Assembly: GCA_003557485.1 (NCBI GenBank)
Contig: PWOI01000165.1
Coordinates: 1 to 22,346 of the forward strand
DNA: 22,346 nucleotides
Direction: 5' to 3'
From: Elusimicrobiota bacterium
GTDB lineage: Bacteria; CG03; SLGR01; PWQF01
Each line of letters begins with the position of its first letter. Within the stretch, counting starts at the first letter, position 1. The translations under genes were made by a program, and so were the position numbers. Of the stretch, positions 4,103 to 21,851 are shown in pieces. The notes below the pieces were generated by a model that was not told the origin of the DNA, made no database searches, and saw nothing but the letters and a program-made list of their open reading frames with translations.

Positions 4103-4131
4103 TTGACAATTATAATTCATCTATGTAAAAT
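4103..4131 (+). promoter_or_regulatory. Sigma70-type promoter for the receiver/PilZ-like gene and pyrG
   Basis: TTGACA (4103-4108), a spacer of 17 bases and TAAAAT (4126-4131) give a near-consensus promoter. Transcription should begin near 4138, leaving a leader of about 28 bases before the ATG at 4166. The TTG that could formally extend the downstream frame to 4103 is the first codon-sized piece of this -35 box, so the longer reading of that gene is very unlikely. Confidence 0.75.
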
Positions 4132-4165
4132 CGTGTCAAATGTTAAAGAGCAGCGAAGGCCAAGA

Positions 4166-6566
<2,401 letters not shown>

Positions 6567-6569
6567 TAT

Positions 6570-6595
6570 CCCGGAAAGAACTATGTTTTTCCGGG
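6570..6595 (+). terminator. Inverted repeat after pyrG, possible weak terminator
   Basis: CCCGGAAA (6570-6577) and TTTCCGGG (6588-6595) form a perfect 8-bp stem with a 10-base loop, starting 4 bases after the pyrG stop. No T-run follows on either strand, so it is not a standard intrinsic terminator. It could protect the 3' end of the mRNA or need a factor. Confidence 0.4.
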
Positions 6596-6660
6596 CCATA
6601 ATCAAATGTCGGAAAAACTCTTTAGATGCTTGAGAATTAATACCGTAATGTAATAAGACT

Positions 6661-6666
6661 GGAGGT
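6661..6666 (+). promoter_or_regulatory. Strong ribosome binding site of the glutamate dehydrogenase gene
   Basis: GGAGGT, 6 bases before the ATG at 6673, is the best ribosome site in the window. It suggests strong translation of the dehydrogenase. No convincing promoter was found in the 106 bases after pyrG. Confidence 0.7.
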
Positions 6667-6672
6667 TAATAT

Positions 6673-7959
6673 ATGTCTGACAATCGTTACAACCCTTATG
6701 AAACAGCACAGGCGCAGTTTGACGTGATAGCCGGTATGCTTGAACTGGAAAGCGGTATCAGGGAGCTTCTCCGGAGGCCATTGAGAGAATATCATTTTAC
6801 TATTCCTGTACGTATGGATAACGGAGAAGTTAAAGTTTTTCAGGGATTCCGCGTGCAGCATAACGACGCCCGCGGCCCGGCCAAGGGAGGAATAAGATTT
6901 CATCCCGAGGAAACCGCTGATACGGTAAGGGCCCTGGCAATGTGGATGACATGGAAATGTTCCGTAGTTGATATTCCTCTTGGCGGAGGCAAAGGCGGAG
7001 TCATATGCGATCCGCGCAGCCTAACAGACCGCGAACAGGAACGGCTTTGCAGGGGGTGGATAAGGCAGATTTCTAAAGACATAGGCCCTAACAGGGATGT
7101 CCCCGCGCCCGATGTTATGACAAGCGCCAAACATATGCTCTGGATGCTTGATGAATTTGAAACAATAAACGGTGAGAGATTGCCCGGAGTTATAACCGGC
7201 AAGCCGGTTGGAATGGGAGGGTCCCTGGGCAGAAAAGAGGCTACGGGATTCGGAGTCATCTACACCTTAAGAGAAGCATTGAAAGAGCTTAATCTCAAAC
7301 CGGAAAATATGACCGCGAGTATACAGGGTTTCGGCAATGTTGCCCAGCATGCCGTCCAGCTTTTCAGAGAACTCGGCGGAACTGTAAGCGCTATATCCTG
7401 CTGGGACCATAAAGATTGTAACTCTTGCACTTACGTTAAAAAAGACGGCATAAACCCTAAAGAACTCTGTGAAATAACCGACCCTTACGGCGGTATAGAT
7501 AAAGAGAAAGCAGCTGACATGAATTATCAGGTTCTTCCGGGAGATGAGTGGATCAATCAGGATGTTGATATACTTATTCCGGCCGCTCTTGAAAACCAGA
7601 TAACCGCCTCAAATATGCAAAATATAAGCAAAAGGGTAAAAGTTATAGCCGAAGGAGCCAATGGCCCCACAACTCCTGCAGCGGACAAGATAATAAGTGA
7701 AAAAGGAATATTTGTTATTCCCGATTTTCTTGCAAATGCAGGAGGTGTCACCTGCAGCTACTTTGAGCAGGTCCAGTCAAACATGAATTATTTCTGGGAG
7801 AAGGAAGAGGTTCTTGAAAAGCTTGACACAAAAATGACATCCGCCTACAAGGCGGTAAGCGGGCTTGACAGGAAGAGAAAGCTCTACATGAGGGATGCAG
7901 CTTACGTGATAGCGATAAACAGGGTTGCAGAAGCTGTAAGTGCCCGCGGCTGGGCTTAA
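6673..7959 (+). CDS. gdhA: Glutamate dehydrogenase (Glu/Leu/Phe/Val dehydrogenase family)
   Basis: Interconverts glutamate and 2-oxoglutarate plus ammonia, joining carbon and nitrogen metabolism. At 428 residues it matches the hexameric bacterial and archaeal type. The substrate domain has the GPAKGGIRFHP motif (Lys71), MTWK (Lys95), the catalytic Lys107 in PLGGGKGG and the catalytic Asp147 in VPAPDV. The nucleotide domain has the glycine-rich turn GFGNVA, and later PAALENQI and EGANGPTTP. Leu, Phe or Val dehydrogenase is a less likely reading because these are usually shorter and the motifs here are of the glutamate type. NAD or NADP preference cannot be read safely. The gene ends 7 bases before a large modular protein gene, probably in the same transcript. 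A local cluster of three Cys (CWDHKDCNSC) sits in the nucleotide domain. Confidence 0.95.
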   Translation: MSDNRYNPYETAQAQFDVIAGMLELESGIRELLRRPLREYHFTIPVRMDNGEVKVFQGFRVQHNDARGPAKGGIRFHPEETADTVRALAMWMTWKCSVVDIPLGGGKGGVICDPRSLTDREQERLCRGWIRQISKDIGPNRDVPAPDVMTSAKHMLWMLDEFETINGERLPGVITGKPVGMGGSLGRKEATGFGVIYTLREALKELNLKPENMTASIQGFGNVAQHAVQLFRELGGTVSAISCWDHKDCNSCTYVKKDGINPKELCEITDPYGGIDKEKAADMNYQVLPGDEWINQDVDILIPAALENQITASNMQNISKRVKVIAEGANGPTTPAADKIISEKGIFVIPDFLANAGGVTCSYFEQVQSNMNYFWEKEEVLEKLDTKMTSAYKAVSGLDRKRKLYMRDAAYVIAINRVAEAVSARGWA

Positions 7960-7966
7960 AATCACT

Positions 7967-10900
7967 ATGAATGAAAAACCTGCCGGCAAGGAATATGTTC
8001 TTGACGTGCTCAAAGAAAGGGCTAAGGAACTTAACTGCCTTTATCTCGTTGAGGAGCTTCTAAGCCGCCGCAAACTTTCCCTTTCAGAAATTTTCGGCAG
8101 GATAGTCAATATTATCCCTTCGGGTTTGCGTTTTCCTGACGTCTGCAAGGCAAGACTTGTATATGAAAAAAACAGTTACCAGACCACGGGATTCCGCAGT
8201 TCGTCCTGGATGTTCAGCTCCGACATAAAGATTGAAGAAAAAGCCGTAGGTAAAGTTGAAGTCTGTTATTTAAGCAATGTGCCCCGTACTGAAGAGGGGG
8301 TTTTCCTTGAACGGGAACAGAAACTCATAAAAACAATTGCCGGCCGAATTGGCCAGACGGTTCTTCACCGCAAGATGGACCAGATACTTAAGGAATGGGA
8401 TTCTGCCAAGAAGGAGCTTTCCGAAACCGAGGACACCAGCAGGGAATGGAAAATTATTGTTGACCTCTTAAACAGAACGGACCAGGGAATGCTGCTGCAC
8501 ATATGCAGGAAAATGATAAATTACCTTTTCTGGAGCGGCGTGGAGGAGGCTGCGGGAGTATTGCATAAAATCGGCTCAAAATCCATAGAATCTTTTGAGA
8601 GCGGGGAGGTTAACGCTCCAAGCCTGCGTAAACCACTTGAAGATATTGTAATTATAAGTGAAAAAACTTTTAAAATCGCATCAAAACATTTAAGCGACAG
8701 CGAAATAGTATTAAGAGTTAAAAAATGGATACAGGAAGAAAAATATAATTTTCTCATAAGGACTGTAGACCGGGTAGATGCGTCTCTTTCTGAAATAATA
8801 GATGCTCTTTCCCGCTACAGGAATATTTTTGAAAATCAGTCCATTTCTTATTCACCTACTGAAAGGTGGCTTAAAGTTGCCCTTATACACAGGTTTCTGT
8901 CCAACGACCTCGACTTCATAAACATTGCAAAACAGTATATAGAGGTTCAGGATTTCTGCAGAATTGCAGACAAGATGATATATCCTCCCGGAAGCAAGGG
9001 AAAGCTTGGAGGGAAAAGCACCGGGCTTTTTTTCGGCCAGCAAATACTTGATAAAACCGCAGCCCAGTTTCCCATACTCAAATCGGTAAAAACCCCTAAA
9101 ACCTGGTATATAACCGCAGACGAAATGACGGAGTTCCTGCACCACAACAACCTGGAAGAACTCAAAGAGCAGAAATATAAGGAACTCTACGAAATACGCA
9201 TCGACTATCCCAACATAATACAGCTTATGAAGAACGCCAGCTTCACTCCGGGAATAATAAAGAGCCTAGCGCTTGCACTTGACGATTTCGGGGAACGCCC
9301 GCTTATAGTCCGCAGTTCCAGTCTTCTTGAGGACAGGATGGGAGCGGCGTTTTCCGGAAAATATAAAAGTCTCTTTCTATCCAACCAGGGTTCCAAGCAG
9401 CAGCGCCTGGAAGCGCTGACAGACGCTATAATTGAAGTATACTCCTCTAAATTCTGTCCTGATTCAATTCAGTACAGGTCCGAACGGGGGCTCCTGGATT
9501 TTCCCGAAGAGATGGGGATAATGATTCAGGAAGTTGTAGGCACGCAAATAGGAGATTATTATATGCCGCTTTATGCCGGAATTGCTTTTAGCAGCAATGA
9601 ATTCCGGTGGTCTCCCCGCATCAGGCGCGAGGACGGGCTGCTTCGTATAGTGCCGGGGCTCGGAACACGGGCAGTGGACCGTTTAAGCGACGACTTTCCG
9701 GTTCTTATTTCTCCGGGCCAGCCTGAACTCAGGACAAATACTGTTCCGGAAGAAATTAAACACTATTCCCCGGGAAAAATAGACCTGATAAACCTTAAAA
9801 CAAACTCCTTTGAAACGGTAGATGTCCGTGCTTTTATCAGGAAGCACGGCGATGAGATCCCGGAAATACATAACCTGGTTTCAATATACCGCGACAATCA
9901 GATTTTAAAACCTTCAAAATTAAACATAGACTTCGAAAATGACGACCTTGTGGTGACATTTGACGGGTTGATCTCAAAAACTCCCCTTGTAAAACTGGTA
10001 AGCCGTATCCTTAAAACGCTGCAGGAAAAAATGGGAACCCCTATAGATATCGAATTCGCTTCGGACGGAAAAGATTTTTATCTTCTGCAATGCCGCGCCC
10101 AGAGCTCCGGAGCTGCAAGTTCTGCCGCCCCTATACCTAAAGATATTACGGATTCCGATATGCTTTTTACTGCAAAGAAATATATTTCAAACGGCAGAAT
10201 CGACAACATATCTCACATAGTTTACGTTGATCCGGACGCTTACAACAAAATAAGCAGGAAAGAGGAATATGTAAATACAGGAAAAATAGTAGGCCTTCTG
10301 AATTCCATACTTCCAAAAAGGCAGTTTATACTTATGGGGCCGGGGCGGTGGGGCAGCAGGGGCGATATAAGGCTGGGAGTCCCGGTAAGCTATTCCGACA
10401 TAAACAATACGGCCGCGCTTATTGAAATAGCAAGAAAAAAATCCGGCTATGTCCCGGAGCTTTCGTTCGGAACTCATTTCTTTCAGGATCTTGTTGAAGC
10501 TGATATAAGGTATCTTCCTCTTTATCCTGATGAAAAGGATATTGTCTTTAACGAGATGTTTTTTAGCGGCAGGGAGAATATCCTTGAGAAAGTTTTACCC
10601 GATTACGCCAGCTACTCGGATATAGTAAAAGTCATAGATGTTCCTAAAACATCCCGGGGCAAAATACTTAAAATCCTGATGAATGCCGACCTTAGCGAGG
10701 CAGTCGGATTTCTGGGTTCACCCTCAGCCGCTGTACCCGGCAGGCAGGAACCCGAAGACTACGGAGAGCCTAAAATAAAGGATGAATTCTGGCGCTGGCG
10801 TTATCATATGGCAAAATGCATAGCATCCCGCATTGATCCGAAGCGGTTTGGAGTACAGGGCTTTTATGTCTTCGGAAGCACCAACAACACAACTGCAGGG

Positions 10901-11161
10901 CCTGCCAGCGATATAGATATCCTTATACATTTCAGGGGAAATAAATCTCAGCGCAAGGACCTCGAGCAATGGCTTGAAGGATGGAGTATATGTCTTGCAG
11001 AATTAAATTATCTAAAAACGGGATACTCCGCAAAAGAACTTCTTGACCTGCACATAGTTACCGATGAAGATATAAAAAATAAGACTTCATATGCCGTTAA
11101 GATAGGAGCCGTGACTGACCCTGCCCATCCTCTTGAACTTAAAAAAGACAGCGAAAAATAG
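7967..11161 (+). CDS. Modular protein: sensor-like N-terminus, PEP/pyruvate-type ATP-grasp domain, nucleotidyltransferase-like C-terminus
   Basis: The product is 1064 residues from ATG 7967; GTG 7940 would overlap gdhA, and neither start has a clear ribosome site. Residues about 1-130 look like a GAF-type sensor (SSDIKI, VGKVEVCYL, then a helix IAGRIGQT). About 130-335 are helical and unrecognised. About 340-714 match the ATP-grasp domain of PEP synthase/PPDK: GGKSTGL, RPLIVRSSSLLEDRMGAAFS, MGIMIQEVV, GLGTRAVDR and the closing FYLLQCRAQ, so the ATP site looks complete. About 740-930 (GPGRWGSRGD, LSFGTHFFQD) belong to a region I know only from uncharacterised PEP/pyruvate-binding proteins. About 940-1055 carry a polymerase-beta-type nucleotidyltransferase signature, FGST...SDIDI (Gly970, Ser971, Asp982, Asp984). 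The phosphohistidine swivel domain and the PEP/pyruvate barrel of true PPDK are absent, so it is not PEP synthase. The reaction is unknown; it sits directly after gdhA. Confidence 0.8.
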   Translation: MNEKPAGKEYVLDVLKERAKELNCLYLVEELLSRRKLSLSEIFGRIVNIIPSGLRFPDVCKARLVYEKNSYQTTGFRSSSWMFSSDIKIEEKAVGKVEVCYLSNVPRTEEGVFLEREQKLIKTIAGRIGQTVLHRKMDQILKEWDSAKKELSETEDTSREWKIIVDLLNRTDQGMLLHICRKMINYLFWSGVEEAAGVLHKIGSKSIESFESGEVNAPSLRKPLEDIVIISEKTFKIASKHLSDSEIVLRVKKWIQEEKYNFLIRTVDRVDASLSEIIDALSRYRNIFENQSISYSPTERWLKVALIHRFLSNDLDFINIAKQYIEVQDFCRIADKMIYPPGSKGKLGGKSTGLFFGQQILDKTAAQFPILKSVKTPKTWYITADEMTEFLHHNNLEELKEQKYKELYEIRIDYPNIIQLMKNASFTPGIIKSLALALDDFGERPLIVRSSSLLEDRMGAAFSGKYKSLFLSNQGSKQQRLEALTDAIIEVYSSKFCPDSIQYRSERGLLDFPEEMGIMIQEVVGTQIGDYYMPLYAGIAFSSNEFRWSPRIRREDGLLRIVPGLGTRAVDRLSDDFPVLISPGQPELRTNTVPEEIKHYSPGKIDLINLKTNSFETVDVRAFIRKHGDEIPEIHNLVSIYRDNQILKPSKLNIDFENDDLVVTFDGLISKTPLVKLVSRILKTLQEKMGTPIDIEFASDGKDFYLLQCRAQSSGAASSAAPIPKDITDSDMLFTAKKYISNGRIDNISHIVYVDPDAYNKISRKEEYVNTGKIVGLLNSILPKRQFILMGPGRWGSRGDIRLGVPVSYSDINNTAALIEIARKKSGYVPELSFGTHFFQDLVEADIRYLPLYPDEKDIVFNEMFFSGRENILEKVLPDYASYSDIVKVIDVPKTSRGKILKILMNADLSEAVGFLGSPSAAVPGRQEPEDYGEPKIKDEFWRWRYHMAKCIASRIDPKRFGVQGFYVFGSTNNTTAGPASDIDILIHFRGNKSQRKDLEQWLEGWSICLAELNYLKTGYSAKELLDLHIVTDEDIKNKTSYAVKIGAVTDPAHPLELKKDSEK

Positions 11162-11173
11162 TACCGCGTACCT

Positions 11174-11749
11174 TTAAGGGTTGATGCGCGACTGTTTTGT
11201 TCCTGCTATATGAAGGGGTATTCCATCCCTGCAAAGAGGGCATTGTTGCGGATCATAGGCGGGCCAGGAGGCTTTTAAAAGAGGCTTGAAGAGATACCCG
11301 AAATCAGCTTCTCCGCGCTGAAGAAGTGCAGTGATTCCTACTATTTCGGCACTGTAGCTCTTTAAAACATACAGCGCTTCCATCACGCTGCCGCCGGTAG
11401 TAACCACATCTTCAACAACAAGAATTTTTTCCCCGGGCTCAATATGAAACCCCCTGCGCAGCGAAAAGTTCTCATCTTTCCTTTCAAGGAATATGTGCCT
11501 GCAGCCGAGATGGCGGCTTATTTCCTGGCCAAGCACAATACCTCCCACGGCAAGAGAGACAGCCGCATCAATAGTGGTTCCTTTCCATTTACCGGCAAGG
11601 TTTTTTGCTGCCCGCGAGGCTTCTTTCGGATATTTCAGAAGAGCCTGGGCCTGAAAATAATGACCGGAGTGAAGTCCGCTTGCAAGAAGGAAATGTCCCT
11701 CTTTCAGGGCGCCTGTTTTTTTGAATATTTTAGTCTCAAAGTCCGGCAT
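11174..11749 (-). CDS. pyrE: Orotate phosphoribosyltransferase
   Basis: Joins orotate to PRPP to give OMP, step five of UMP synthesis. At 191 residues it has the PRPP-binding loop VVEDVVTTGGS (residues 111-121) and, upstream, LERKDENFSLRRGF, which covers the mobile loop. The C-terminal DPQQCPLCRDGIPL segment is typical of one bacterial branch of the family and includes a CxxC pair. An AAAGGAG ribosome site lies upstream of the ATG, within pyrF. It is the last gene of the pyr operon and overlaps pyrF by 14 bases. Its stop is 12 bases from the stop of the convergent plus-strand gene. Confidence 0.95.
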   Translation of the reverse strand: MPDFETKIFKKTGALKEGHFLLASGLHSGHYFQAQALLKYPKEASRAAKNLAGKWKGTTIDAAVSLAVGGIVLGQEISRHLGCRHIFLERKDENFSLRRGFHIEPGEKILVVEDVVTTGGSVMEALYVLKSYSAEIVGITALLQRGEADFGYLFKPLLKASWPAYDPQQCPLCRDGIPLHIAGTKQSRINP

Positions 11750-12383
11750 CTTTTTTTATCTCCTTTACAGTTTCAAGGGGGTTTTCACTGTTTCTTATGG
11801 GCCTTCCTATTACAAGGTAATCCGCCCCGCAGCAGACAGCCTCCGAAGGAGTAAGAACTCGCTTCTGGTCGTCCTTGAGGGAGTACGAGGCCGGCCTTAT
11901 ACCGGGAACCACGCATTCAAGGTTTGGAAAAGACTCTTTGACTCTTTTCAGATCGGCCCCGGAAACAACGACGCCGTCCAGCCCGCAGGAAAGGGCATCT
12001 GATGCGGCCTGCATAGAATCCCCCGCCCCGGCGCTTGAGAGGACCGTAACTCCCCATATTTTAGGCTGGCCGGACGATTTTCTTACCGCGCTTGCCGCCC
12101 TAAGCGCTTCAGGGGAGGCAGCAATATGTATAGTAGTTGAGAAGCTGCCTGTTTCTGCTGCCGAAGCGACAGCCTTGGCGCATATCGAGGGTATGTCGTG
12201 AATCTTAAGGTCCAAAAAAACTTCTGCTCCGTGCCGCCGGACCATCCTGACCGCTTCAGGGCCGTAACGGATAAAAAGCTGCAGTCCTATTTTAAAAAAT
12301 TTAAGTTCACCCTTGAGCTTTTCTACAAGGTTCTCCGCTTCGCTCAGGTTTTCAAAATCAAGCGCGCATATTATTTCAGCCAT
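11736..12383 (-). CDS. pyrF: Orotidine 5'-phosphate decarboxylase
   Basis: Converts OMP to UMP, the final step of the pathway. The product is 215 residues, slightly short for the bacterial group 1 enzyme but complete. It starts ICALDF, has the catalytic signature DLKIHDIP (Asp58, Lys60, Asp63), and closes the barrel with VPGIRP and the phosphate-binding IGRPI. The AAGGAAAGG ribosome site precedes the ATG at 12383. It lies between pyrD (15-base gap) and pyrE (14-base overlap), so PyrF and PyrE are separate proteins here, not fused as in eukaryotes. Confidence 0.96.
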   Translation of the reverse strand: MAEIICALDFENLSEAENLVEKLKGELKFFKIGLQLFIRYGPEAVRMVRRHGAEVFLDLKIHDIPSICAKAVASAAETGSFSTTIHIAASPEALRAASAVRKSSGQPKIWGVTVLSSAGAGDSMQAASDALSCGLDGVVVSGADLKRVKESFPNLECVVPGIRPASYSLKDDQKRVLTPSEAVCCGADYLVIGRPIRNSENPLETVKEIKKDAGL

Positions 12384-12398
12384 TATGATTACCTTTCC

Positions 12399-13226
12399 TT
12401 ATTTTTCTGATTTTTCCTCTTCAATTATGGTGTTTACCGCATCAGGGTTTTTCAGCAGGGCCGTACCTATTACAAAAGCCCTGGCGCCTGCCAGCAAATA
12501 ATCCTGAACGTCTCCATAATCACTTATTCCTCCGCAGGCCGCTATATCTATTGACGTATTCTGCCTTATCTGTCTGACTGCTTTGAGAACAACGGGTTTA
12601 ATTGCCGGGCCTGTCAGGCCTCCTTCATATATTGTACCTTTAAAATTAATTGCGCAGGGAATGGAGTTGGAGCAGACAACCGCATCAACTCCAAGTTCTT
12701 CCAGCCGGAGGCTTAAATCAACAGGTGAATCTACCGCATTAATTTTTACCCATAAAGGCAATTCCGAGGCTTCCCTGACTTTTCTTACAACACCGGCGCA
12801 TTTTTTACTGTCACGGGTAACAACTTCTCCTTTCAGGTTGGGGCATGAGAGGTTAAGTTCAAGCGCATCCGCTCCTATGCCGGAAAGCCTTCCGGCAATC
12901 TCTGCCCACTCATCGGGTGTCTCTCCGAATATGCTTATAACGGCAGGACAGGGGAGTTCTTTTATTGCAGGGAATTTTTCATCTATAAATACTTCAAGGC
13001 CGCAGTTCTGCAGCCCCACGCGGTTTACTACCCCGTTTTCAGTTTCAAATATACGGGGCGGGGCATTACCCTGGCGCGGATTAAGGGTTATTGTTTTTGT
13101 TGTAACGGCTCCCCAGAGCAGCCGAAGACCCTTGAAAAGCTCCCATGCCTCGGCACCGTAGCCGTAGCATCCGCTTGCCGGCAGGTAAGGAGTAGAGAGT
13201 GTAAGGCGGCCGAATTTAAGAGCCAT
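12399..13226 (-). CDS. pyrD: Dihydroorotate dehydrogenase, class 1B catalytic subunit
   Basis: Oxidises dihydroorotate to orotate using FMN. The product is 275 residues, shorter than the membrane class 2 enzyme and without its N-terminal helix, so it is a cytosolic class 1 enzyme. The active-site Cys128 lies in ELNLSCPN; VTTKTIT, GGLTGPAIKP and the FMN phosphate-binding ACGGI and IGTALL segments are also present. The gene for PyrK, the electron-transfer subunit, lies directly upstream and overlaps it by 11 bases. That makes class 1B (NAD+ as acceptor) the clear choice over the fumarate-linked class 1A, and it fits an anaerobic life. Confidence 0.95.
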   Translation of the reverse strand: MALKFGRLTLSTPYLPASGCYGYGAEAWELFKGLRLLWGAVTTKTITLNPRQGNAPPRIFETENGVVNRVGLQNCGLEVFIDEKFPAIKELPCPAVISIFGETPDEWAEIAGRLSGIGADALELNLSCPNLKGEVVTRDSKKCAGVVRKVREASELPLWVKINAVDSPVDLSLRLEELGVDAVVCSNSIPCAINFKGTIYEGGLTGPAIKPVVLKAVRQIRQNTSIDIAACGGISDYGDVQDYLLAGARAFVIGTALLKNPDAVNTIIEEEKSEK

Positions 13227-13959
13227 CCCAGTCTATCTTTTCTGCATCAAAAACCGGCCCGTCCGTGCAGGTAAGGCGATAACCCTGCAGAGTTCTAACC
13301 ACGCATGACTGACAGAGGCCTGTGCCGCACCCCATATGCTCTTCCCAGCTCACAAAACATTTTTTATTATTGAGCTTTGATATCTCAGCTGTTTTTTTCA
13401 TCATTGCTTTCGGGCCTGCCGCATATACCGTTCCGGCATCCTTTATATATTCATCAAGAATATCAACGACCGTGCACCTGTCGGATTTTTCTGAGACGGC
13501 AACAGTTTTATGGCCTTTTGCGGAAACAGGTTCAAGGCCTATATGTTCCTCCGGAGAACATACGCCGTGCAGGAATGTTCCCGGATTGCTTGAATGAAGG
13601 CTGAGAAAATATAACGGAGCCACACCCACGCCGCCGGATACGAAAAGAGGTTTTGCCGAAGGTTCTCCGAAACCCCTGCCGAGCGGGCCCATTATGTCAA
13701 GCTCGTCTCCTTCACCGCAGCTGCTGAGTATGCGGGTTCCCGATCCGGTGACCCTGAAAAGTATTTTAAAAAAGCCGGATCCGGCTTCAAATACGCTGAA
13801 AGGTCGCCTTAAACTTTTGCCTTTTACGGCAATATTGACAAATTCTCCCGGAGAACAGCTTTCGGATATCCCGGGTTCCTTAACAGTGAAAATATATATG
13901 CAGGGAGAAACTTGCTCCTTTAAAGTAACAATCCCCTTTTTAATTAAAGACGCTTTCAT
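13216..13959 (-). CDS. pyrK: Dihydroorotate dehydrogenase electron-transfer subunit
   Basis: Carries electrons from the FMN of PyrD to NAD+ through FAD and a [2Fe-2S] cluster. The product is 247 residues. FAD-binding RRPFS is at 51-55; GPLGRGF (91-97) and the pyridine-nucleotide segment GGVGVAP (109-115) follow. The cluster ligands are Cys211, Cys216, Cys219 and Cys231, in CGTGLCQSC and after a short gap. All four are present, so the subunit should be functional. It overlaps pyrC by 20 bases and pyrD by 11; no clear ribosome site precedes its ATG, so it probably relies on coupling. Confidence 0.95.
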   Translation of the reverse strand: MKASLIKKGIVTLKEQVSPCIYIFTVKEPGISESCSPGEFVNIAVKGKSLRRPFSVFEAGSGFFKILFRVTGSGTRILSSCGEGDELDIMGPLGRGFGEPSAKPLFVSGGVGVAPLYFLSLHSSNPGTFLHGVCSPEEHIGLEPVSAKGHKTVAVSEKSDRCTVVDILDEYIKDAGTVYAAGPKAMMKKTAEISKLNNKKCFVSWEEHMGCGTGLCQSCVVRTLQGYRLTCTDGPVFDAEKIDWDGS

Positions 13960-15229
13960 TCTTGTAGGCTATCTTGCCTTCGGCCAGGGTAAGTACGGGA
14001 AGTCCTTTAAGTTTCTTTCCCAGGTAGGGCGAGTTCTTGCTTTTTGAAATGAAAAAGTCTTCTGTAATCTGTATTTCTTTTTCTGTATCAATAACTGTTA
14101 TGTCCGCGGGAGAACCTTTTTCTATCTTACCAAGATTCTCCTGTTTCAGAATTGAAGCGGGTTTAACAGTCAGGGATGCAACAAGGTCGCTGAAAGATAT
14201 AGACTTTTTGTCAACTAAAAAGGTGTAGAGGGCGCCGAATGCGGTTTCCAGCCCGGTTATTCCGAACGGGGCCAGAGCAAACTCCCTGTTTTTTTCCACA
14301 TTAAGATGCGGAGCGTGGTCTGTTGCTATGCAGTCTATCGTTCCGTCTTTCAGTCCATTTATAAGAGCCTTTATATCTTCCTGCGTCCTCAGAGGAGGCT
14401 TCATTTTAAAATTGGTGTCATAACCTATCACATCCTCTTCGGTAAAAGTAAGGTGGTGGGGAGTAACTTCCGCGGTCACAGCAATTCCTCTCTTTTTCGC
14501 TTCGCGTATCATATCGACCGAACGTTTTGTTGTAATATGGCACAGATGAAGACGGCACCCTGTAAGTTCGGCAAGAGAAATATCCCGTGAGACTATAATC
14601 TCTTCAGCCTGTGCCGGCATGCCCCTGAGGCCCAGTATTGTTGATGTTTTTCCTTCGTTCATCATGCCTTCCCGGGTGAGGTTCAGGTCCTCCGGATGTG
14701 AGAAGAGGGGGAGATCAAACATTTTGCAATACTCCATTGCCCGGCGCATTATCATGGAATTCATAACAGTTGTCCCGTCATCGGAAATGGCTATGGAGCC
14801 CGCCTTGTGCATTTTCCCTATCTCGGTGAGCTCCTTTCCCTTGAGTTCCTTTGTAACTGCGCCAACGGGAAGCACTCTGACTTTACCCTCTGTGGCATTG
14901 GTTGCAATAATATACTTTACTCCGGAAACCGAATCTATCGCGGGTTTCGTGTTTGCCATTGAACATACGGTTGTAAATCCGCCTTTAGCTGCAGCCCTTG
15001 TTCCCGAAGCAATGGTTTCCACGTCTTCCCTTCCGGGTTCGCGCAGATGGGTATGAAGGTCTATCATCCCCGGTATGACATATCTCTGCCCCGCATAGAA
15101 AGTTTGACATTTCACAGAAATGCTCTTATCTATTCTTTCTATTTTGCCGTTGCTTACAAGTATATCCGTTACCCTGGCTTTGCCGGATTCCGGGTCAAAG
15201 AGCCTGGCCTTTTTAAGTAATATTTTCAT
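13940..15229 (-). CDS. pyrC: Dihydroorotase
   Basis: Closes carbamoyl aspartate to dihydroorotate. The product is 429 residues, a class I enzyme of the amidohydrolase superfamily. Metal ligands are visible: His59 and His61 in DLHTHLREPG, Asp150/151 in AISDDG, later His residues in FSHPED and LCHITT, and the catalytic Asp in ATDHAPH. It has the usual small N- and C-terminal beta domains around the barrel. A GGAGGAAAAG ribosome site precedes ATG 15229, inside the end of pyrB (17-base overlap). Inactive dihydroorotase-like proteins (PyrC') lack some of these ligands; this one keeps them, so it should be active. Confidence 0.96.
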   Translation of the reverse strand: MKILLKKARLFDPESGKARVTDILVSNGKIERIDKSISVKCQTFYAGQRYVIPGMIDLHTHLREPGREDVETIASGTRAAAKGGFTTVCSMANTKPAIDSVSGVKYIIATNATEGKVRVLPVGAVTKELKGKELTEIGKMHKAGSIAISDDGTTVMNSMIMRRAMEYCKMFDLPLFSHPEDLNLTREGMMNEGKTSTILGLRGMPAQAEEIIVSRDISLAELTGCRLHLCHITTKRSVDMIREAKKRGIAVTAEVTPHHLTFTEEDVIGYDTNFKMKPPLRTQEDIKALINGLKDGTIDCIATDHAPHLNVEKNREFALAPFGITGLETAFGALYTFLVDKKSISFSDLVASLTVKPASILKQENLGKIEKGSPADITVIDTEKEIQITEDFFISKSKNSPYLGKKLKGLPVLTLAEGKIAYKNESVFN

Positions 15230-16148
15230 CTTTTCCTCCAGAGAGCAGGTAAAGTACAGCCATCCTCACGGCAACCCCGTTAGTTACCTGCTGATCTACG
15301 ACGGAATTGGGAGAGTCGGCCACATCAGAAGATATTTCAATTCCCCTGTTCATAGGGCCGGGATGCATTATGAGAAGGTCTTTCTTGGCGCCGGCCAGTT
15401 TAGTCGAGTCAACCCCGAAAACAAAACTGTATTCCTCAAGGCTCGGAAAAAGCAGCTCTTTCTGGCGTTCCTTCTGAATGCGAAGTATGTTTATTACATC
15501 AAGTTCACCGATTATCTCTTCCGGCCTGTGGTAAACACTGACCCCCAGCTTTTCTATATCCCTTGGAATAAGGGTGGCGGGGGCTATTACGCAAACCTCT
15601 GCTCCGAGTTTTGTAAGACCCCATATGTTAGAACGTGCGACACGGGAGTGAAGAATATCGCCGACTATACCGACCTTAAGGCCCTTTATCCGTCCTTTTT
15701 TCTCCCTTATAGTGTACATATCAAGCAGTCCCTGAGTGGGATGTTCATGAGTTCCGTCCCCGGCGTTTATTATTGAGCATTTTACGTGTTTACTCAGCAG
15801 GTGCGGCGCTCCCGAGTGAGGATGCCTCATTATTATAATGTCGGCCCCGAGAGCCTGAACGGTGCGGCCTGTATCAATAAGGCTTTCTCCCTTTTCTATG
15901 GATGAAGCTTTCGCAGCTATATTTATAGTATCTGCGCTGAGCCGTTTTGCAGCCAGTTCAAATGATATTCTTGTTCGCGTTGAAGGTTCATAGAAAAGGT
16001 TTACCACTGTTTTTCCCCTTAGAGGAGGCGTTTTCTTAACGGTGCGGGTAAATACATCTTTCATCGGTATGGCGGTGTCAAGAATAAGCTCTATTTCTTC
16101 CCTGGTAAGTGTTTCCAGCTCTATAAGGTCTTTGCGGTTAAATTTCAT
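15213..16148 (-). CDS. pyrB: Aspartate carbamoyltransferase catalytic subunit
   Basis: Joins carbamoyl phosphate and aspartate, the committed step of pyrimidine synthesis. The product is 311 residues. The carbamoyl-phosphate loop STRTR is at 56-60 in FYEPSTRTRISFE, KASSIEKGES follows near 80, and HPTQGLLD is at 136-143. These assign it to ATCase rather than ornithine carbamoyltransferase. No pyrI regulatory subunit gene is seen, so control is probably left to PyrR. An AGGAAG ribosome site precedes the ATG. The gene begins 4 bases after pyrR and overlaps pyrC by 17. Confidence 0.97.
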   Translation of the reverse strand: MKFNRKDLIELETLTREEIELILDTAIPMKDVFTRTVKKTPPLRGKTVVNLFYEPSTRTRISFELAAKRLSADTINIAAKASSIEKGESLIDTGRTVQALGADIIIMRHPHSGAPHLLSKHVKCSIINAGDGTHEHPTQGLLDMYTIREKKGRIKGLKVGIVGDILHSRVARSNIWGLTKLGAEVCVIAPATLIPRDIEKLGVSVYHRPEEIIGELDVINILRIQKERQKELLFPSLEEYSFVFGVDSTKLAGAKKDLLIMHPGPMNRGIEISSDVADSPNSVVDQQVTNGVAVRMAVLYLLSGGKDENIT

Positions 16149-16152
16149 GGTA

Positions 16153-16704
16153 TTAACTTCCTTTTCCGGGCTTTCTGTCTGTCACGAAGACTTCGTCTTT
16201 TCCGCCTTCTTCGGTCATCATCAGCTGCACCCAGGCGTTTTTAGGCAGGTCAATTTTTTTTCCCGTATAGTTAGGCTCAATCGGAAAATCCCTGTATCCC
16301 CTGTCAAAAAGAACGCAGAGCCGAACTTTGGAGGGCCGGCCGAAATCAATCATGTGGTCCAGGGCCGCCCTGACTGTGCGCCCCGTCCATAAAACATCGT
16401 CAACAAGTATCACATACTTGCCTGTAATGTCAAAATCAAGTATAGTCTGTTTAATCTGAGGCTGGACAGGGCGGTTGAAAAAGTCATCCCTGTATAGGGT
16501 GATGTCGAGTATGCCTACCGGTATTTCTTTACCGGTAGTTTTTTTTATCTGCTGCGCAATGCGTTTTGCTACATGCGCGCCGGCTGAGCGGATTCCTATG
16601 AGGACAAGATCTTCAGCCCCTCTGGTATCATCTATTATTTCCGAGGAAAGCCTTTTGATTTTTCTCTGGAACTCCTGCGAGTCCATAATTTTTTTGTCTT
16701 TCAT
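16153..16704 (-). CDS. pyrR: PyrR, pyr operon RNA-binding regulator / uracil phosphoribosyltransferase
   Basis: In well-studied bacteria PyrR binds UMP or UTP and then the pyr mRNA leader, lowering expression when pyrimidines are plentiful; many members also make UMP from uracil. The product is 183 residues. The PRPP loop VILVDDVLWTGRT spans about 98-110, and FGRPSKVRL and VLFDRGYRDFPI follow as in known PyrR. It is the first gene of the operon, with an AAAGGAG ribosome site 6 bases before the ATG. The leader in front of it is short and holds no clear PyrR-binding consensus, so how it acts here is uncertain. Confidence 0.95.
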   Translation of the reverse strand: MKDKKIMDSQEFQRKIKRLSSEIIDDTRGAEDLVLIGIRSAGAHVAKRIAQQIKKTTGKEIPVGILDITLYRDDFFNRPVQPQIKQTILDFDITGKYVILVDDVLWTGRTVRAALDHMIDFGRPSKVRLCVLFDRGYRDFPIEPNYTGKKIDLPKNAWVQLMMTEEGGKDEVFVTDRKPGKGS

Positions 16705-16725
16705 GGTTGCTCCTTTGCAGTAAGG

Positions 16726-16741
16726 CGGAAATATGTTTCCG
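16726..16741 (-). other. Small hairpin in the pyrR leader
   Basis: CGGAAA and TTTCCG form a 6-bp stem with a 4-base loop in the predicted leader, about 9 bases upstream of the pyrR ribosome site. No T-run follows, so it is not a terminator. It could be a protein- or ribosome-access element, but it is small and may be chance. Confidence 0.3.
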
Positions 16742-16763
16742 AAGCGTCCCGGTCTTTAGGATA

Positions 16764-16791
16764 AGTTTAAAAAGAATTTTTGATTTGTCAA
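16764..16791 (-). promoter_or_regulatory. Promoter of the pyr operon
   Basis: On the minus strand an exact TTGACA (16786-16791), a 16-base spacer and TAAACT (16764-16769). Transcription should start near 16757, giving a leader of only about 53 bases before the pyrR ATG. Confidence 0.55.
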
Positions 16792-16982
16792 GAAAAAATA
16801 CCGGCAAAAACAGCAGTTAAAAAAGAGTGTCGGAATGCAGAGCCTGTTGGTATAGCTTTTTACTATAGCAATAATTTTAGAAATTGTAAAGCCGCAACGT
16901 TTTCTCGACGACAAAGCATCTTCTAGTAAATTTAAAAAGTATTATTTAAGGGCATATTATTGACTGTGAAACAGAGTTCAAC

Positions 16983-17011
16983 TTGACATAAAATGCGCAT
17001 GATTATAAATT
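16983..17011 (+). promoter_or_regulatory. Promoter of the nrdD operon
   Basis: An exact TTGACA at 16983-16988 followed by an A+T-rich -10 region, TATAAATT at 17004-17011. TAAATT lies at a 17-base spacing and TATAAA at 15. This gives a leader of about 70 to 75 bases before the ATG at 17091. Confidence 0.5.
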
Positions 17012-17042
17012 GAAACATACATTGATAATTATGCTTAGTTTA

Positions 17043-17060
17043 AGAGATAGGGGCGTCTCT
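17043..17060 (+). other. Hairpin in the nrdD leader
   Basis: AGAGAT and GTCTCT form a 5-bp stem (six with a T-G pair) around AGGGGC, about 18 bases before the AAGGAG ribosome site (17078-17083). Its role is unknown and it could be chance. Confidence 0.3.
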
Positions 17061-17090
17061 GCCGGATTTTAATTAAAAAGGAGTGGTTTT

Positions 17091-19352
17091 ATGAGTAAAA
17101 AGTTTTTAGAAAACATAAAAAAAAGAAACGGCAACATCGCTGAATTTAAACAGGAGAAAATAACCCGCGCCGTAGAAAAGGCAATGAAGGAACTGGGAAA
17201 AAATGACACTAATGGTAAAAATGTGTCCGAAATATCCCGTCAGGTTTCAGATACCGTAACACACCGTCTGAAAAAGAGTTACGGCTACATGACCCCGAAT
17301 GTTGAAGAAGTGCAGGATGTAGTAGAAGAGGTTCTTCTGGACGGAGGACATTCCGAAATAGCACGCACTTACATTCTATACAGGCATATAAAGAATGAAA
17401 ACAGGCAGCGCAAGGCCTTTCTTAAAAAAATAGAGGGCCTTATAGATTCCTATATATCAAAGGATGACTGGAGAGTAAAGGAAAACAGCAATGTTTCCTA
17501 TTCCATATCGGCAATGCAGGAGTATATTTCCGGTGCAGTTATAGCCGAATATACGCTGAAACACGGATATCCCCCGGAGATAGCCCGGGCGCACAGGGAA
17601 GGGGATTTTCACATACATGACCTCTCGGTTGGAACTTTTGCCGGATACTGCGCAGGATGGTCGCTGAGCCAGCTTCTGCTGGAAGGTTTTAACGGTGTAC
17701 GGGGCAGAATAGCCGCCAGGCCGGCAAAACATTTTAATGCCGTACTTGGCCAGATAGTAAACTTTATGGGGACTCTTCAGAACGAATGGGCAGGCGCCCA
17801 GGCTTTTTCTTCATTTGACACATATCTAGCTCCCCTGGTTGCAAAAGACAACCTTTCCTATGCCCAGGTTAAGCAGTCTGTTCAGGAATTTATTTTCGCA
17901 ATAAATGCTACCTCCAGGTGGGGAAACCAGGTTCCGTTTACCAATCTTACCTTCGACCTTGTTCCTCCGGAGGATTTAAGAGATAAGCCTATAATATACG
18001 GCGGCGAGATTCTAAACGATGAAAAGTACGGCGATTTCCAGAAAGAAATGGATATGATAAACCGCGCTTTCATAGAAATTATGCTTAAAGGCGATATGGA
18101 CGGAAGAGTATTTACTTTTCCTATTCCCACATACAATATAACAAAGGAATTTGACTGGGACAGCGAGATTTCCGACCTGCTCTTTGAAATGACTTCCAGG
18201 TACGGGATACCGTACTTTCAGAACTTCATAAACAGCGATCTGCGCCCAACTGATGTAAGAAGCATGTGCTGCCGCCTTCAGCTTGATGTGCGAGAGCTTA
18301 AAAAGAAAACCGGCGCTCTTTTCGGATCCGGTGAAAAAACAGGCAGTATAGGGGTTGTTACGATAAATCTTCCCCGCCTGGGATATACCAGCGACGATGA
18401 GGAAACTTTCTTTGAAAAGCTTGAAGAGCTTATGTACCTGGCAAAGGAATCCCTTGAGATAAAAAGAAAAGATGTTTCAAAAAATATGGCTCAGGGGCTG
18501 CTGCCCTGGTCCAAGAGATATCTTGGCAACCTGGACAACCATTTTTCTACTATAGGACTTGTGGGAATGAATGAAACATGCCTTAACTATCTCGGAAAAG
18601 ACATATCCACCCCCGAAGGCAAGCAGTTCGCCCTGAAAGTGATGGATTTTATGAGAGAAAAGCTGGAGGTTTACCAGGATGAAACCTCACACATATATAA
18701 CCTGGAAGCAACGCCGGCCGAAGGTACCGCCTACCGTCTTGCGCGGCTTGACAGAAAAAAATTCGGAGACAGCATAATTGCTGCCGGCGGCGAAACTCCC
18801 TACTATACAAATTCATCGCATTTGCCGGTTCATTTTACCGACGATGTTCTTTTTGCGCTTGACCACCAGCAGGAGCTTCAGTCCAAGTATACCGGGGGAA
18901 CTGTTCTTCATACTTTCCTTGGCGAATCCCTGGTTTCAAGCCAGGCCTGTAAAGAGTTTGTGAGGAAGATCGCATATAAATCGACTCTTCCTTACTTCAC
19001 CATAACCCCGACATACAGTATCTGTGACGAACACGGCTATATCTCTGGAGAACACCACAGCTGTCCGACATGTGAAAATAAAACAGAAGTTTACAGCAGG
19101 GTTGTCGGATATTACAGGCCTGTCGGCAACTGGAACGACGGAAAGCAGCAGGAGTTCACGGAAAGAAAGACTTACTCTGCGGATTTCGTTTCTCCCGAGG
19201 AGATTGAAGAAGTTGTCCGGCCGGTTAAGGAAAAAACAAAAAAGAAACCGAAGGACAACCCGGAAACTGCCGTGGATGAACCGGAAGCTCCGGTGGCTGA
19301 CGTGAAAGTTGAAACGCAAAAGCAGGACAACAGCCAGCTTGCTCTATTTTAA
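17091..19352 (+). CDS. nrdD: Anaerobic (class III) ribonucleoside-triphosphate reductase
   Basis: Reduces ribonucleoside triphosphates to deoxynucleotides using an oxygen-sensitive glycyl radical. The product is 753 residues. An ATP-cone allosteric domain covers roughly 1-95 (ITRAVEKAM, LDGGHSEIARTYILYR). The catalytic barrel has Cys393/Cys394 in MCCRLQLD. Near the end is a zinc-type site with Cys645, His648, Cys658 and Cys661, then the radical Gly673 in RVVGYYRPVGNW. The protein runs 80 residues beyond the glycine, about 50 more than E. coli NrdD. The added tail is charged, rich in Lys, Glu and Pro, and ends in QLALF, which looks like a DNA sliding-clamp-binding motif. An AAGGAG site lies 7 bases before the ATG. 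It leads an operon with its activase. Confidence 0.97.
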   Translation: MSKKFLENIKKRNGNIAEFKQEKITRAVEKAMKELGKNDTNGKNVSEISRQVSDTVTHRLKKSYGYMTPNVEEVQDVVEEVLLDGGHSEIARTYILYRHIKNENRQRKAFLKKIEGLIDSYISKDDWRVKENSNVSYSISAMQEYISGAVIAEYTLKHGYPPEIARAHREGDFHIHDLSVGTFAGYCAGWSLSQLLLEGFNGVRGRIAARPAKHFNAVLGQIVNFMGTLQNEWAGAQAFSSFDTYLAPLVAKDNLSYAQVKQSVQEFIFAINATSRWGNQVPFTNLTFDLVPPEDLRDKPIIYGGEILNDEKYGDFQKEMDMINRAFIEIMLKGDMDGRVFTFPIPTYNITKEFDWDSEISDLLFEMTSRYGIPYFQNFINSDLRPTDVRSMCCRLQLDVRELKKKTGALFGSGEKTGSIGVVTINLPRLGYTSDDEETFFEKLEELMYLAKESLEIKRKDVSKNMAQGLLPWSKRYLGNLDNHFSTIGLVGMNETCLNYLGKDISTPEGKQFALKVMDFMREKLEVYQDETSHIYNLEATPAEGTAYRLARLDRKKFGDSIIAAGGETPYYTNSSHLPVHFTDDVLFALDHQQELQSKYTGGTVLHTFLGESLVSSQACKEFVRKIAYKSTLPYFTITPTYSICDEHGYISGEHHSCPTCENKTEVYSRVVGYYRPVGNWNDGKQQEFTERKTYSADFVSPEEIEEVVRPVKEKTKKKPKDNPETAVDEPEAPVADVKVETQKQDNSQLALF

Positions 19353-19357
19353 TTTGT

Positions 19358-20059
19358 GTGTTATTTGCCGGAATAAAGAAGACTTCTCTTATTGACTGGC
19401 CTCCTAATACAGTAACAACTTTATTTACAAGGGGGTGTAATTTAAGATGCCCGTGGTGCCAGAACCCGGATCTTGTTCTGACGGAAAATGCCCCGGAAGA
19501 TATACCTGTTGAAGAGATTTATAGCTTTTTAGATAAAAACAGGAAATGGATTGACGGGATATGCATTACCGGGGGAGAACCCCTGGTTCAGCCGGGACTT
19601 GAAGGCTTTCTTAAAGAAATGAAGAATAGGGGCGTTCCCGTTAAACTTGATTCAAACGGTTATATGCCGCTGAAACTTAAAAGCGCTATTGAAAAAGGAC
19701 TTGTTTCCTATATTGCAATGGATATTAAGGCTCCTCTTACTGCAGAAGAATATTCAATAGCTTCAGGAACCAGTATTGACATAGAAAAAATAATTCATAG
19801 TATTCATATTCTCAGGGAAGAGAAGGTTCCCTATGAGTTCAGAACAACGCTTGTCCCGGGTATAACAGAAAAAGAAGAAGTAGAAAAAATTGCCGGGTTT
19901 CTCAAAGGGGCCGCCCGTTATGTCTTGCAGAATTTCAGAGGGGGTGAAACACTTGACAGCAGCTTCAACGGTATAAGGCCTTACGAAAAGGAAACATTGC
20001 TGAAGGCAGGAGATATAGCCCGTAGTTATGTAAATCAGGTAGAGGTAATACAGAGATGA
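19358..20059 (+). CDS. nrdG: Anaerobic ribonucleotide reductase activating protein (radical SAM)
   Basis: Uses S-adenosylmethionine and a [4Fe-4S] cluster to create the glycyl radical on NrdD. The product is 233 residues, with the cluster motif CNLRCPWC (Cys27, Cys31, Cys34) and the SAM-binding ITGGEPL. It is longer than E. coli NrdG and opens with IKKTSLIDWP, as in the second, NrdG2-like branch common in anaerobes. The start is GTG 19358, the only start in frame after the nrdD stop. It has no visible ribosome site and is 5 bases from nrdD, so translation is probably coupled. It shares ATGA with thyX. Other glycyl-radical activases look alike, but the neighbour settles the partner. Confidence 0.92.
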   Translation: MLFAGIKKTSLIDWPPNTVTTLFTRGCNLRCPWCQNPDLVLTENAPEDIPVEEIYSFLDKNRKWIDGICITGGEPLVQPGLEGFLKEMKNRGVPVKLDSNGYMPLKLKSAIEKGLVSYIAMDIKAPLTAEEYSIASGTSIDIEKIIHSIHILREEKVPYEFRTTLVPGITEKEEVEKIAGFLKGAARYVLQNFRGGETLDSSFNGIRPYEKETLLKAGDIARSYVNQVEVIQR

Positions 20060-20685
20060 AAGTTCAGCTTATTTCAGTCACACCCGACGCCGAGAAAGTA
20101 ATAGAAAAAGCGGCGCGGACTTGTTATATGTCACACGGCAGGATAACAAAGGATTCCCATGCGGCATTTATAAAAAGACTGATCGGAGCAGGACATCTTT
20201 CCGTGCTGGAACACGCTACAGCGACCTTCAGCCTGGAAGGAGTCAGCCGCGCGCTTACTCACCAGCTTGTCCGGCACAGGCTTTGCTCCTATTCACAGCA
20301 GTCCCAGCGTTATGTAAGAGAAGACAATTTTCAATGGGTAGTCCCGCCCGATATAAATAAAGATGAAAAACTTAAAAAAGAATACAATCAATGTATGGAA
20401 TATCTCAGGGACAGGTACAGTTCTTTTCTTAAAAACGGGCTTAAAGCCGAAGACGCCCGTTTTATTCTTCCCAACGCCTGCTGTACGAATATTGTTTTTT
20501 CTGCCAATTTTCGGCAGTTAAGGCATACTATTGCCCTGCGGGGTTCATCCAAGGCTCAGTGGGAAATACGGGATCTTTTTATGAAAATTACCCTGTTAAT
20601 GAAAGAAGTTGCGCCGAACTGTTTTTTTGATTTTAATATAGACACCGAAAAGAATGTTATTCAAACAGGCGGCGCAGATGTATGA
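20056..20685 (+). CDS. thyX: Flavin-dependent thymidylate synthase
   Basis: Makes dTMP from dUMP with FAD, NADPH and methylenetetrahydrofolate, unrelated to ThyA. The product is 209 residues. The ThyX signature RHRxxSxxxxSxR is complete at 73-85 (RHRLCSYSQQSQR), and the dUMP-binding LRGSSKAQWEI follows near 160. It overlaps nrdG by four bases (ATGA). Its position in a deoxynucleotide operon with nrdD and dcd fits a supply line from ribonucleotides to dTTP. No thyA is present in the window. Confidence 0.97.
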   Translation: MKVQLISVTPDAEKVIEKAARTCYMSHGRITKDSHAAFIKRLIGAGHLSVLEHATATFSLEGVSRALTHQLVRHRLCSYSQQSQRYVREDNFQWVVPPDINKDEKLKKEYNQCMEYLRDRYSSFLKNGLKAEDARFILPNACCTNIVFSANFRQLRHTIALRGSSKAQWEIRDLFMKITLLMKEVAPNCFFDFNIDTEKNVIQTGGADV

Positions 20686-20703
20686 TGATGATAATGGATA
20701 AAC

Positions 20704-20710
20704 AAAGGAG
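20704..20710 (+). promoter_or_regulatory. Ribosome binding site that fixes the guaB3 start
   Basis: AAAGGAG lies 7 bases before the ATG at 20718. It picks this start over the ATG run at 20682-20694, which is in the same frame but overlaps the thyX stop. Confidence 0.75.
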
Positions 20711-20717
20711 AAAAGAA

Positions 20718-21851
20718 ATGGACAGAGCATACGGATTTGATGAAGTAGCAATAGTTCCGGGCCGGGAAACCTGCGACCCGGAAGAAGTAAACGTAGCCGG
20801 CAGCATAGGGGGCCATAAGTTTGATATCCCATTCATAGCAAGCGCAATGGACGGGGTAGTCTCTCCGGAATTTGCGGCAACTATGGACCGTTTCGGCGGG
20901 CTTGCCGTTCTCAATCTTGAGGGAGTATTCACGAGATACGAATCTCCCAGGGAGGTTCTTGAAGAAATAATAGCTGCCCGCACGGAAGAAGTCACCCCGC
21001 TGCTGCAGAAGATTTATGCGGAACCCATAAAGGACGAGCTGGTGACTAAAGTTATAAAAGGGATGAAAGAAAAAGGAATCCGCGTATGTGTTTCGGCAAC
21101 TCCTGTCAAGGCTGAGAAACTGGGAAAACTCAGCAAAGATGCAGGTGCCGATCTTTTTTGCCTCCAGGCAACAGTTCTTACCCGCAACCACCAGTCCACA
21201 AAATATAACCCGCTGGACCTGGATAAGTTCATTAAGGATATGGAGATACCGGTTATACTGGGAAATTGCGTCTCTTATGAAGTAGCAATGGACCTTATGG
21301 AAGCCGGCGCCAGCGCTGTTCTTGTAGGAATCGGCCCGGGAGCGGCCTGCACTACAAGAGGCGTTCTGGGAATCGGCGTCCCCCAGGTAACGGCAACTAT
21401 GGACTGCGCCAGGGCCCGTGATGACTACTACAAAAAGACCAACCGCTATGTTTCGGTTATAACAGACGGCGGAATGACCCAGGGGGCTGATATCTGCAAG
21501 GCTTTTGCAAGCGGTGCTGATATGGTTATGCTCGGCAATACATTTGCCAAAGCCCAGGAGGCGCCCGGAAAGGGATACCACTGGGGAATGGCCCTGCCGC
21601 ATCCTTACCTTCCGCGCGGGACAAGGATAAGAGTAGGTATGTGCGGCCATCTGGAAGAGATACTTATAGGGCCGGCAAAAACAGACGACGGGACACAGAA
21701 CCTGGCAGGGGCGCTTAAACTTTCGCTGAGCTGCTGCGGGGCTAAGGACATAAAAGACTTCCATTCCAAGAGCACTCTCATAATAGCGCCCGAGATAAAA
21801 AAGGAAGGCAAAATTTATCAGAAAGCCCAGAGCCTGGGAATGAGTAAATGA
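20718..21851 (+). CDS. guaB3: IMP dehydrogenase-related protein, GuaB3 family
   Basis: The product is 377 residues from the ATG that follows AAAGGAG; earlier ATGs at 20682-20694 would add twelve unlikely residues. It is a TIM barrel of the IMP dehydrogenase/GMP reductase superfamily without the CBS pair of ordinary GuaB. The start [26 protein letters not shown], the catalytic loop [17 protein letters not shown] (Cys211) and the phosphate-binding [14 protein letters not shown] are those of the GuaB3 subfamily known from actinobacteria and cyanobacteria. The likely substrate is a purine nucleoside monophosphate such as IMP or GMP, but the exact reaction cannot be read from sequence. It is an odd purine gene between thyX and dcd and overlaps dcd by four bases (ATGA). 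Confidence 0.88.

Follow-up and report, generated by a model that had tools for sequence, protein, structure and literature searches.

What is the role of a large multidomain protein whose gene lies directly behind that of a glutamate dehydrogenase (GDH) in an Elusimicrobiota genome, and does it act on that enzyme? Expression and substrate level are usually regarded as what controls bacterial GDHs of this type. The window analysed here, i.e., the whole stretch of 22,346 nucleotides, contains at 7967-11161 on the forward strand an open frame of 1064 aa counted from its ATG, for which the coordinates and reading frame of the original prediction proved right; a GTG at 7940 is an alternative start and would give a protein of 1073 aa. 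The stop codon of the GDH gene occupies positions 7957-7959, and the ATG of the large protein, referred to here as P0001, follows 7 bases further on, at 7967. The original prediction had read the domain make-up of P0001 well but had overlooked the GDH gene directly upstream, which is the strongest clue to this protein. The features of the pair are collected in Table 1.

Table 1. Coordinates of P0001, its modules and its GDH neighbour in the window
Feature	Position	Strand	Basis
Glutamate dehydrogenase (GDH), 428 aa, conserved upstream partner	6673..7959	+	PF00208/PF02812
P0001: GAF - helical - ATP-grasp - probable swivel - nucleotidyltransferase	7967..11161	+	Pfam and full-length model
GAF-fold sensor domain, residues 10-152	7994..8422	+	Fold match, full-length model
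Helical linker domain, residues 157-340	8435..8986	+	Full-length model
PPDK_N ATP-grasp domain, residues 345-715	8999..10111	+	PF01326
Probable diverged swivelling beta/beta/alpha (phosphohistidine-like) domain, residues 719-922, no Pfam family	10121..10732	+	Model and weak fold matches
Codon of His837, candidate phosphoryl-carrying histidine (SFGTHFF)	10475..10477	+	Invariance in 115 homologues
Pol-beta/MNT-type nucleotidyltransferase domain, residues 936-1064	10772..11158	+	PF01909, PF18765; fold 2rff, 8xeo, 6sxj
GS(970-971)...D982-x-D984 catalytic signature	10874..10918	+	Alignment, orthologue conservation
Third carboxylate D1027	11045-11047	+	Alignment, orthologue conservation

The rest of the window has a different content. 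At its start, one ORF (3-1712, +) encodes the C-terminal portion of a solute-binding protein fused to an ABC permease (SBP_bac_8 then BPD_transp_1). Genes for a second permease and a UgpC/MalK-type ATPase come next, the set being a sugar transporter with fused binding protein and permease. A 290-aa ORF with a TTG start (4103-4975, +; a later ATG is probable) precedes the CTP synthase gene and matched no family in Pfam or NCBIfam. From 4944 to 22346 the window is a nucleotide-metabolism island, which begins with pyrG, includes a minus-strand run of pyrE, pyrF, pyrD, pyrK, pyrC, pyrB and pyrR, and after pyrR holds nrdD, nrdG, thyX, a guaB-like gene and dcd. Elsewhere in this genome there are two P-II genes (G000:C138 and C177).

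Above the Pfam cut-offs, P0001 matches PPDK_N, NTP_transf_2 and the overlapping Polbeta model (PF18765) and nothing else; NCBIfam gave partial PEP-synthase-type matches far under their cut-offs, and a PDB sequence search only a trace match to PEP synthase. Further modules emerge from a full-length structure model (pLDDT 79). In this model residues ~10-152 adopt a GAF fold (Z 11-13, rmsd 2.2-2.8 over 112-124 residues), in a region that has no Pfam match, with DosP, NifA (8jrc) and PtsP (3trc, 3ci6) among the matches and the GAF domains of NifA and PtsP at Z 10.5-11.5; the sensor-like domain that had been proposed for the N terminus is thus borne out. The helical linker domain that follows is common to the shorter homologues of 765-791 aa considered below, in which its profile (HEL) finds matches.

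The next module is an ATP-grasp domain of the PPDK_N family (E 4e-54, residues 346-726). Orthologues show little or no variation in its motifs GGKSTGL, VRSSSLLEDR and DIEFA..LLQCR or in residues G349, K350, R449-S452, E455, D456, D694, E696, Q708 and R710, in agreement with the earlier statement that the ATP-grasp motifs are complete; conservation of these and of the nucleotidyltransferase residues was read from 58-81 orthologues, 50-67% identical to P0001. Moreover, the tested catalytic residues are unchanged in 93 full-length homologues, except for a single change at D984, and the core catalytic residues are intact in full, core and small homologue forms. P0001 is a real conserved protein and no chance arrangement. 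By hhalign the ATP-grasp domain aligns to PEP synthase at 97.7%, and in the fold search residues 345-928 of the full-length model match rifampin phosphotransferase (RPH; Z 15.5), PEP synthase (2ols, chain 18-467; Z 15.2) and PPDK (1dik, chain 14-518; Z 13.1), a span that covers the PPDK phosphohistidine domain. The PEP/pyruvate TIM barrel has no Pfam match anywhere in P0001, as had been foreseen, and the region after 930 is the nucleotidyltransferase. The RPH family model NF041857 scored 26.8 bits against a cut-off of 999, on the ATP-grasp part only, and the rifampin-binding domain was not found.

Residues 719-922 lie directly after the ATP-grasp domain, in the same place as the phosphohistidine domain of PPDK. 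Folded alone with 115 homologues, they give a confident model (pLDDT 94.7), for which the best rows of a VIA fold search are weak (Z 4.5-6.2) and mostly swivel domains: the pyruvate kinase (PK) C-terminal domain, the RPH His swivel (chain 755-867), the PPDK phosphohistidine domain (375-515), RraA and AF_0055. The LdcA/MccF and PA-domain rows we take to be of the swivelling beta/beta/alpha fold too, and some rows (DRTGG-domain, replisome chains) are not obviously swivel. In the RPH structure paper, PPDK, PK and EI are the relatives of the RPH phosphohistidine swivel (PMC4844700), which agrees with the PK and PPDK rows obtained here. The core of the model runs strand, helix, strand, strand, SFGTH at a helix start, strand, and PPDK appears to have its catalytic TSHAA motif at the equivalent place in this order. 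His837 is invariant in the 115 homologues, down to ~20% identity, and so are G793, R794, G796, G804, E820, S833, G835 and F839.

Sequence methods do not see this relation: Pfam matched 0/115 members of the domain, a profile search against PDB sequences returned chance matches only, and hhalign found no similarity to phosphohistidine domains (PF00391; E 0.14). Foldseek with the region alone likewise gave no significant match (E 0.1 or worse), its top rows being muramoyltetrapeptide carboxypeptidase, catharanthine synthase and CD38 with prob up to 0.54. Since hhalign failed, the assignment stands on fold, position and invariance, and since the sequence methods are blind to it, residues 719-922 are called a probable, not proven, phosphohistidine swivel, highly diverged, which would leave only the PEP/pyruvate barrel missing from P0001. 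The phosphohistidine domain that the original prediction reported as absent is therefore probably there, and the region 740-930, for which no function had been named, can be named as a diverged swivel domain with a confident fold of its own. It is improbable that the region is instead an unrelated swivel-fold or protein-binding domain, with the ATP-grasp serving directly as kinase or ligase for GDH or some other partner; the lack of a sequence-level relation to PF00391 and the low fold scores would suit such a domain, but its place directly after the ATP-grasp, the matching order of strands and helices, the one invariant His at a helix start, the invariant GxGRWG-type residues and E820 speak for a carrier.

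The neighbouring gene offers a clue to the process that these modules may serve. A scan of genome contigs found 336 stretches related to P0001 in species genomes, and a survey of the same architecture, as earlier proposed, placed homologues in many bacterial phyla: judged by record titles, the best 80 of the 336 come from Bacillota, Spirochaetes, Aminicenantes/Acidobacteria, Zixibacteria, Krumholzibacteria and Coatesbacteria, and further from Ignavibacteria/Bacteroidetes, Planctomycetes, Kiritimatiellae/Verrucomicrobia and Anaerolineales. Among the 69 loci with enough upstream DNA, many of them MAG contigs, 41 have GDH immediately upstream (<400 bp) and another 18 have it with only a 585-aa ATP-grasp plus swivel paralogue in between, i.e., 59/69 altogether, and these GDHs are 58-78% identical to that of the window; the other 10 loci, including Ignavibacteria L052, L074 and L075, have no GDH nearby. 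A second, independent sample comprised 386 genomes, with membership of this GDH clade set at >=560 bits. Of the 27 genomes with the clade, 24 carry a P0001-type protein and 3 do not (29 carriers overall; Fisher p 3.6e-30), and the two genes are within 2.2 kb of each other in 18/24 pairs and on separate contigs in 4/24. A mirror-tree comparison of the two proteins, run with no control, gave a moderate correlation (rho 0.50).

A functional link of P0001 to GDH is very likely. That the two genes merely answer a shared need, e.g., amino-acid fermentation in anaerobes, with no physical control, has in its favour that many carriers appear from record titles to be anaerobes or sediment/digester MAGs, but the immediate adjacency persists across many phyla, at protein identities of 46-94%, and recurs with different GDH clades, and we regard it as very unlikely. 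At the level of residues, W244 and A280 are common to the GDHs that accompany the full-length protein, at positions mostly gapped in unlinked GDHs, and these GDHs also have W293, C361 and N370, which are absent from partnerless GDHs, a comparison that phylogeny confounds.

Homologues that lack modules show which part of P0001 carries this link. Core homologues of 765-791 aa, which have neither GAF nor nucleotidyltransferase, and more distant homologues of 770-1000 aa, some with a response-regulator domain, also adjoin GDH genes, among them genes of another GDH clade. The link to GDH therefore follows the ATP-grasp plus swivel core, and GAF and nucleotidyltransferase are added modules; the smallest paralogues consist of ATP-grasp and swivel alone (584-606 aa). 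The genome of the window holds a second ATP-grasp plus swivel paralogue (G000:C105:738-2543, L082), which has 866 aa, lacks the nucleotidyltransferase and is 33% identical over 289-896. A calcineurin-like metallophosphoesterase gene is adjacent downstream in 30/74 loci, convergent in 26 (e.g., L009:11278-12120), and absent beside the window gene; its product is a possible eraser of the modification.

The C-terminal nucleotidyltransferase itself is well defined. NTP_transf_2 matches residues 960-1003 (32 bits against a cut-off of 21), G970, S971, D982 and D1027 are invariant in orthologues and D984 nearly so, and Foldseek with the full-length model retrieves nucleotidyltransferases (2rff, MNT antitoxins and AAD(9)); the GS...DxD ending that had been predicted is present with its fold and its intact triad, and the catalytic residues are kept in >90 orthologues. 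No match was found to the GlnE domain PF03710, the MntA antitoxin model of type VII toxin-antitoxin systems (NF047752) scored 23 bits against a cut-off of 60, and no HepT (HEPN) partner lies beside the P0001 gene, whose neighbours are GDH and pyrE. PADLOC returned no more than generic candidate nucleotidyltransferase/phosphoesterase models, so a role in defence was set aside. One genome that lacks the full-length protein has a stand-alone nucleotidyltransferase-like ORF overlapping the end of a GDH gene (L170:1583-2275, -), possibly an unfused counterpart of this domain.

With these features, nucleotidylation could be the main activity, the C-terminal domain AMPylating or UMPylating GDH in the way that GlnE modifies glutamine synthetase, with the ATP-grasp and swivel serving as a gate or adenylate-charge sensor. 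The GS..DxD..D triad intact in 93 full-length homologues, the MNT/aminoglycoside adenylyltransferase fold, the failure to find the GlnE family in the window's genome (assembly 87% complete) and the lower activity of AMPylated mammalian GDH, a precedent for covalent GDH control set by SelO (PMC12375108), all point that way, but homologues without the domain still adjoin the same GDH clade, and the ATP-grasp/swivel core is always kept. Because close homologues beside this clade lack both it and GAF, the nucleotidyltransferase is not the core of P0001. We hold nucleotidylation as the main activity to be unlikely, and nucleotidylation of GDH in any role to be somewhat less so, though still doubtful. 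The earlier view of a ligand-controlled enzyme with two modifying or signalling activities is upheld by the GAF fold, the intact ATP-grasp and nucleotidyltransferase triad and the response-regulator-fused paralogues, but has to be amended, the nucleotidyltransferase not being the core and a phosphohistidine domain being probably present.

If ATP-grasp and swivel form the active unit, the phosphate needs an acceptor, which must be another module or protein because P0001 lacks the barrel and 585-aa paralogues consist of ATP-grasp and swivel only. RPH-type enzymes phosphorylate small molecules, which counts against a protein substrate for P0001. By that analogy the pair might phosphorylate a GDH-related metabolite (2-oxoglutarate, glutamate or a derivative) as RPH does its antibiotic; the closest solved full-length relatives are small-molecule phosphotransferases and the GDH linkage fits a pathway step, but there is no conserved acceptor domain, the smallest paralogues have no further module, and the fusions with GAF and response-regulator domains speak for regulation, so that we give this reading little credence. 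Given the conserved linkage, GDH is the best acceptor candidate.

Taking the domain make-up, the conserved catalytic residues and the GDH linkage as supported by the data, we tentatively favour, at slightly less than even confidence, a model in which P0001 is a phosphohistidine transferase, gated by nitrogen status and charged by ATP, which modifies GDH or otherwise controls it, the nucleotidyltransferase being an accessory modifier. P0001 would be the regulator half of a conserved GDH module, its GAF domain sensing a metabolite of nitrogen or energy status. The ATP-grasp would take a phosphoryl group from ATP and place it on His837 of the swivel, by analogy with PPDK or RPH the beta-phosphoryl with release of AMP and Pi, and the swivel would hand it to an acceptor other than a PEP/pyruvate barrel. 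As the likeliest acceptor or bound target we infer the neighbouring GDH hexamer, the activity of which would be switched, and the C-terminal nucleotidyltransferase may act as a second modifier, adding a nucleotide to GDH or to P0001 itself. Phosphotransfer by ATP-grasp and His swivel appears likely, whereas GDH itself as acceptor or controlled target is about an even call. The low fold scores of the swivel (Z 5-6) and its missing profile similarity to phosphohistidine domains count against the model, as do the three clade genomes that lack the protein, the orthologues with no GDH beside them and the MAG origin of many loci.

Each module of P0001 belongs to a known superfamily, and comparison with known systems shows where it departs from them. 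With RPH and PEP synthase/PPDK it shares the PPDK_N ATP-grasp, including K350, R449, D694/E696, Q708 and R710, and a fold match (Z 15) that spans ATP-grasp and probable swivel; it differs in having neither the PEP/pyruvate barrel nor the rifampin-binding domain, in adding GAF and nucleotidyltransferase, in adjoining GDH, and in a swivel unrecognisable by sequence, with the TH of SFGTHFF in place of GGxTSHAA. The pairing of GAF sensor and phosphohistidine swivel proposed for P0001 exists in EI-Ntr (PtsP), which is linked to nitrogen status and the autophosphorylation of which is inhibited by glutamine through GAF (PMC4848567), a precedent for such gating. EI-Ntr, however, uses PEP through the barrel that binds it and hands the phosphate on to NPr, whereas in P0001, without the barrel, the ATP-grasp would charge the histidine. 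The pol-beta nucleotidyltransferase signature is common to P0001, GlnE/GlnD and MNT-type proteins; GlnE/GlnD control a nitrogen enzyme by nucleotidylation, while the P0001 domain is closest to minimal MNT and aminoglycoside adenylyltransferases. Finally, REC-PPDK response regulators have been listed as a 'Bacteroides-like' combination with no function given (PMC5847659), and are likely the REC-fused paralogues seen here, of ~1000 aa, with the same ATP-grasp and swivel, some beside GDH, and with REC and DUF5752 in place of the GAF and nucleotidyltransferase of P0001. In the searchable literature, which covers few subscription journals, no GDH with a PEP-synthase-like, ATP-grasp or nucleotidyltransferase partner is described, nor are the architecture, the diverged swivel and the GDH linkage of P0001.

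GDH joins carbon and nitrogen metabolism, and P0001 may be an unrecognised switch for it. In its widest and more speculative form, the proposal is that ATP-charged phosphohistidine proteins with a fused nucleotidyltransferase covalently switch GDH on a GAF-bound metabolite across phyla. If true, this covalent control of GDH would stand beside glutamine synthetase adenylylation and EI-Ntr as their counterpart, with a reach that takes in Bacillota, Spirochaetes, Acidobacteria/Aminicenantes, Zixibacteria, Ignavibacteria, Planctomycetes, Chloroflexi and further groups. Many proteins that are now annotated merely as 'PEP synthase-like', the REC-PPDK response regulators included, would also gain a function open to testing, and P0001-type proteins would then be the ATP-driven counterpart of the nitrogen PTS.
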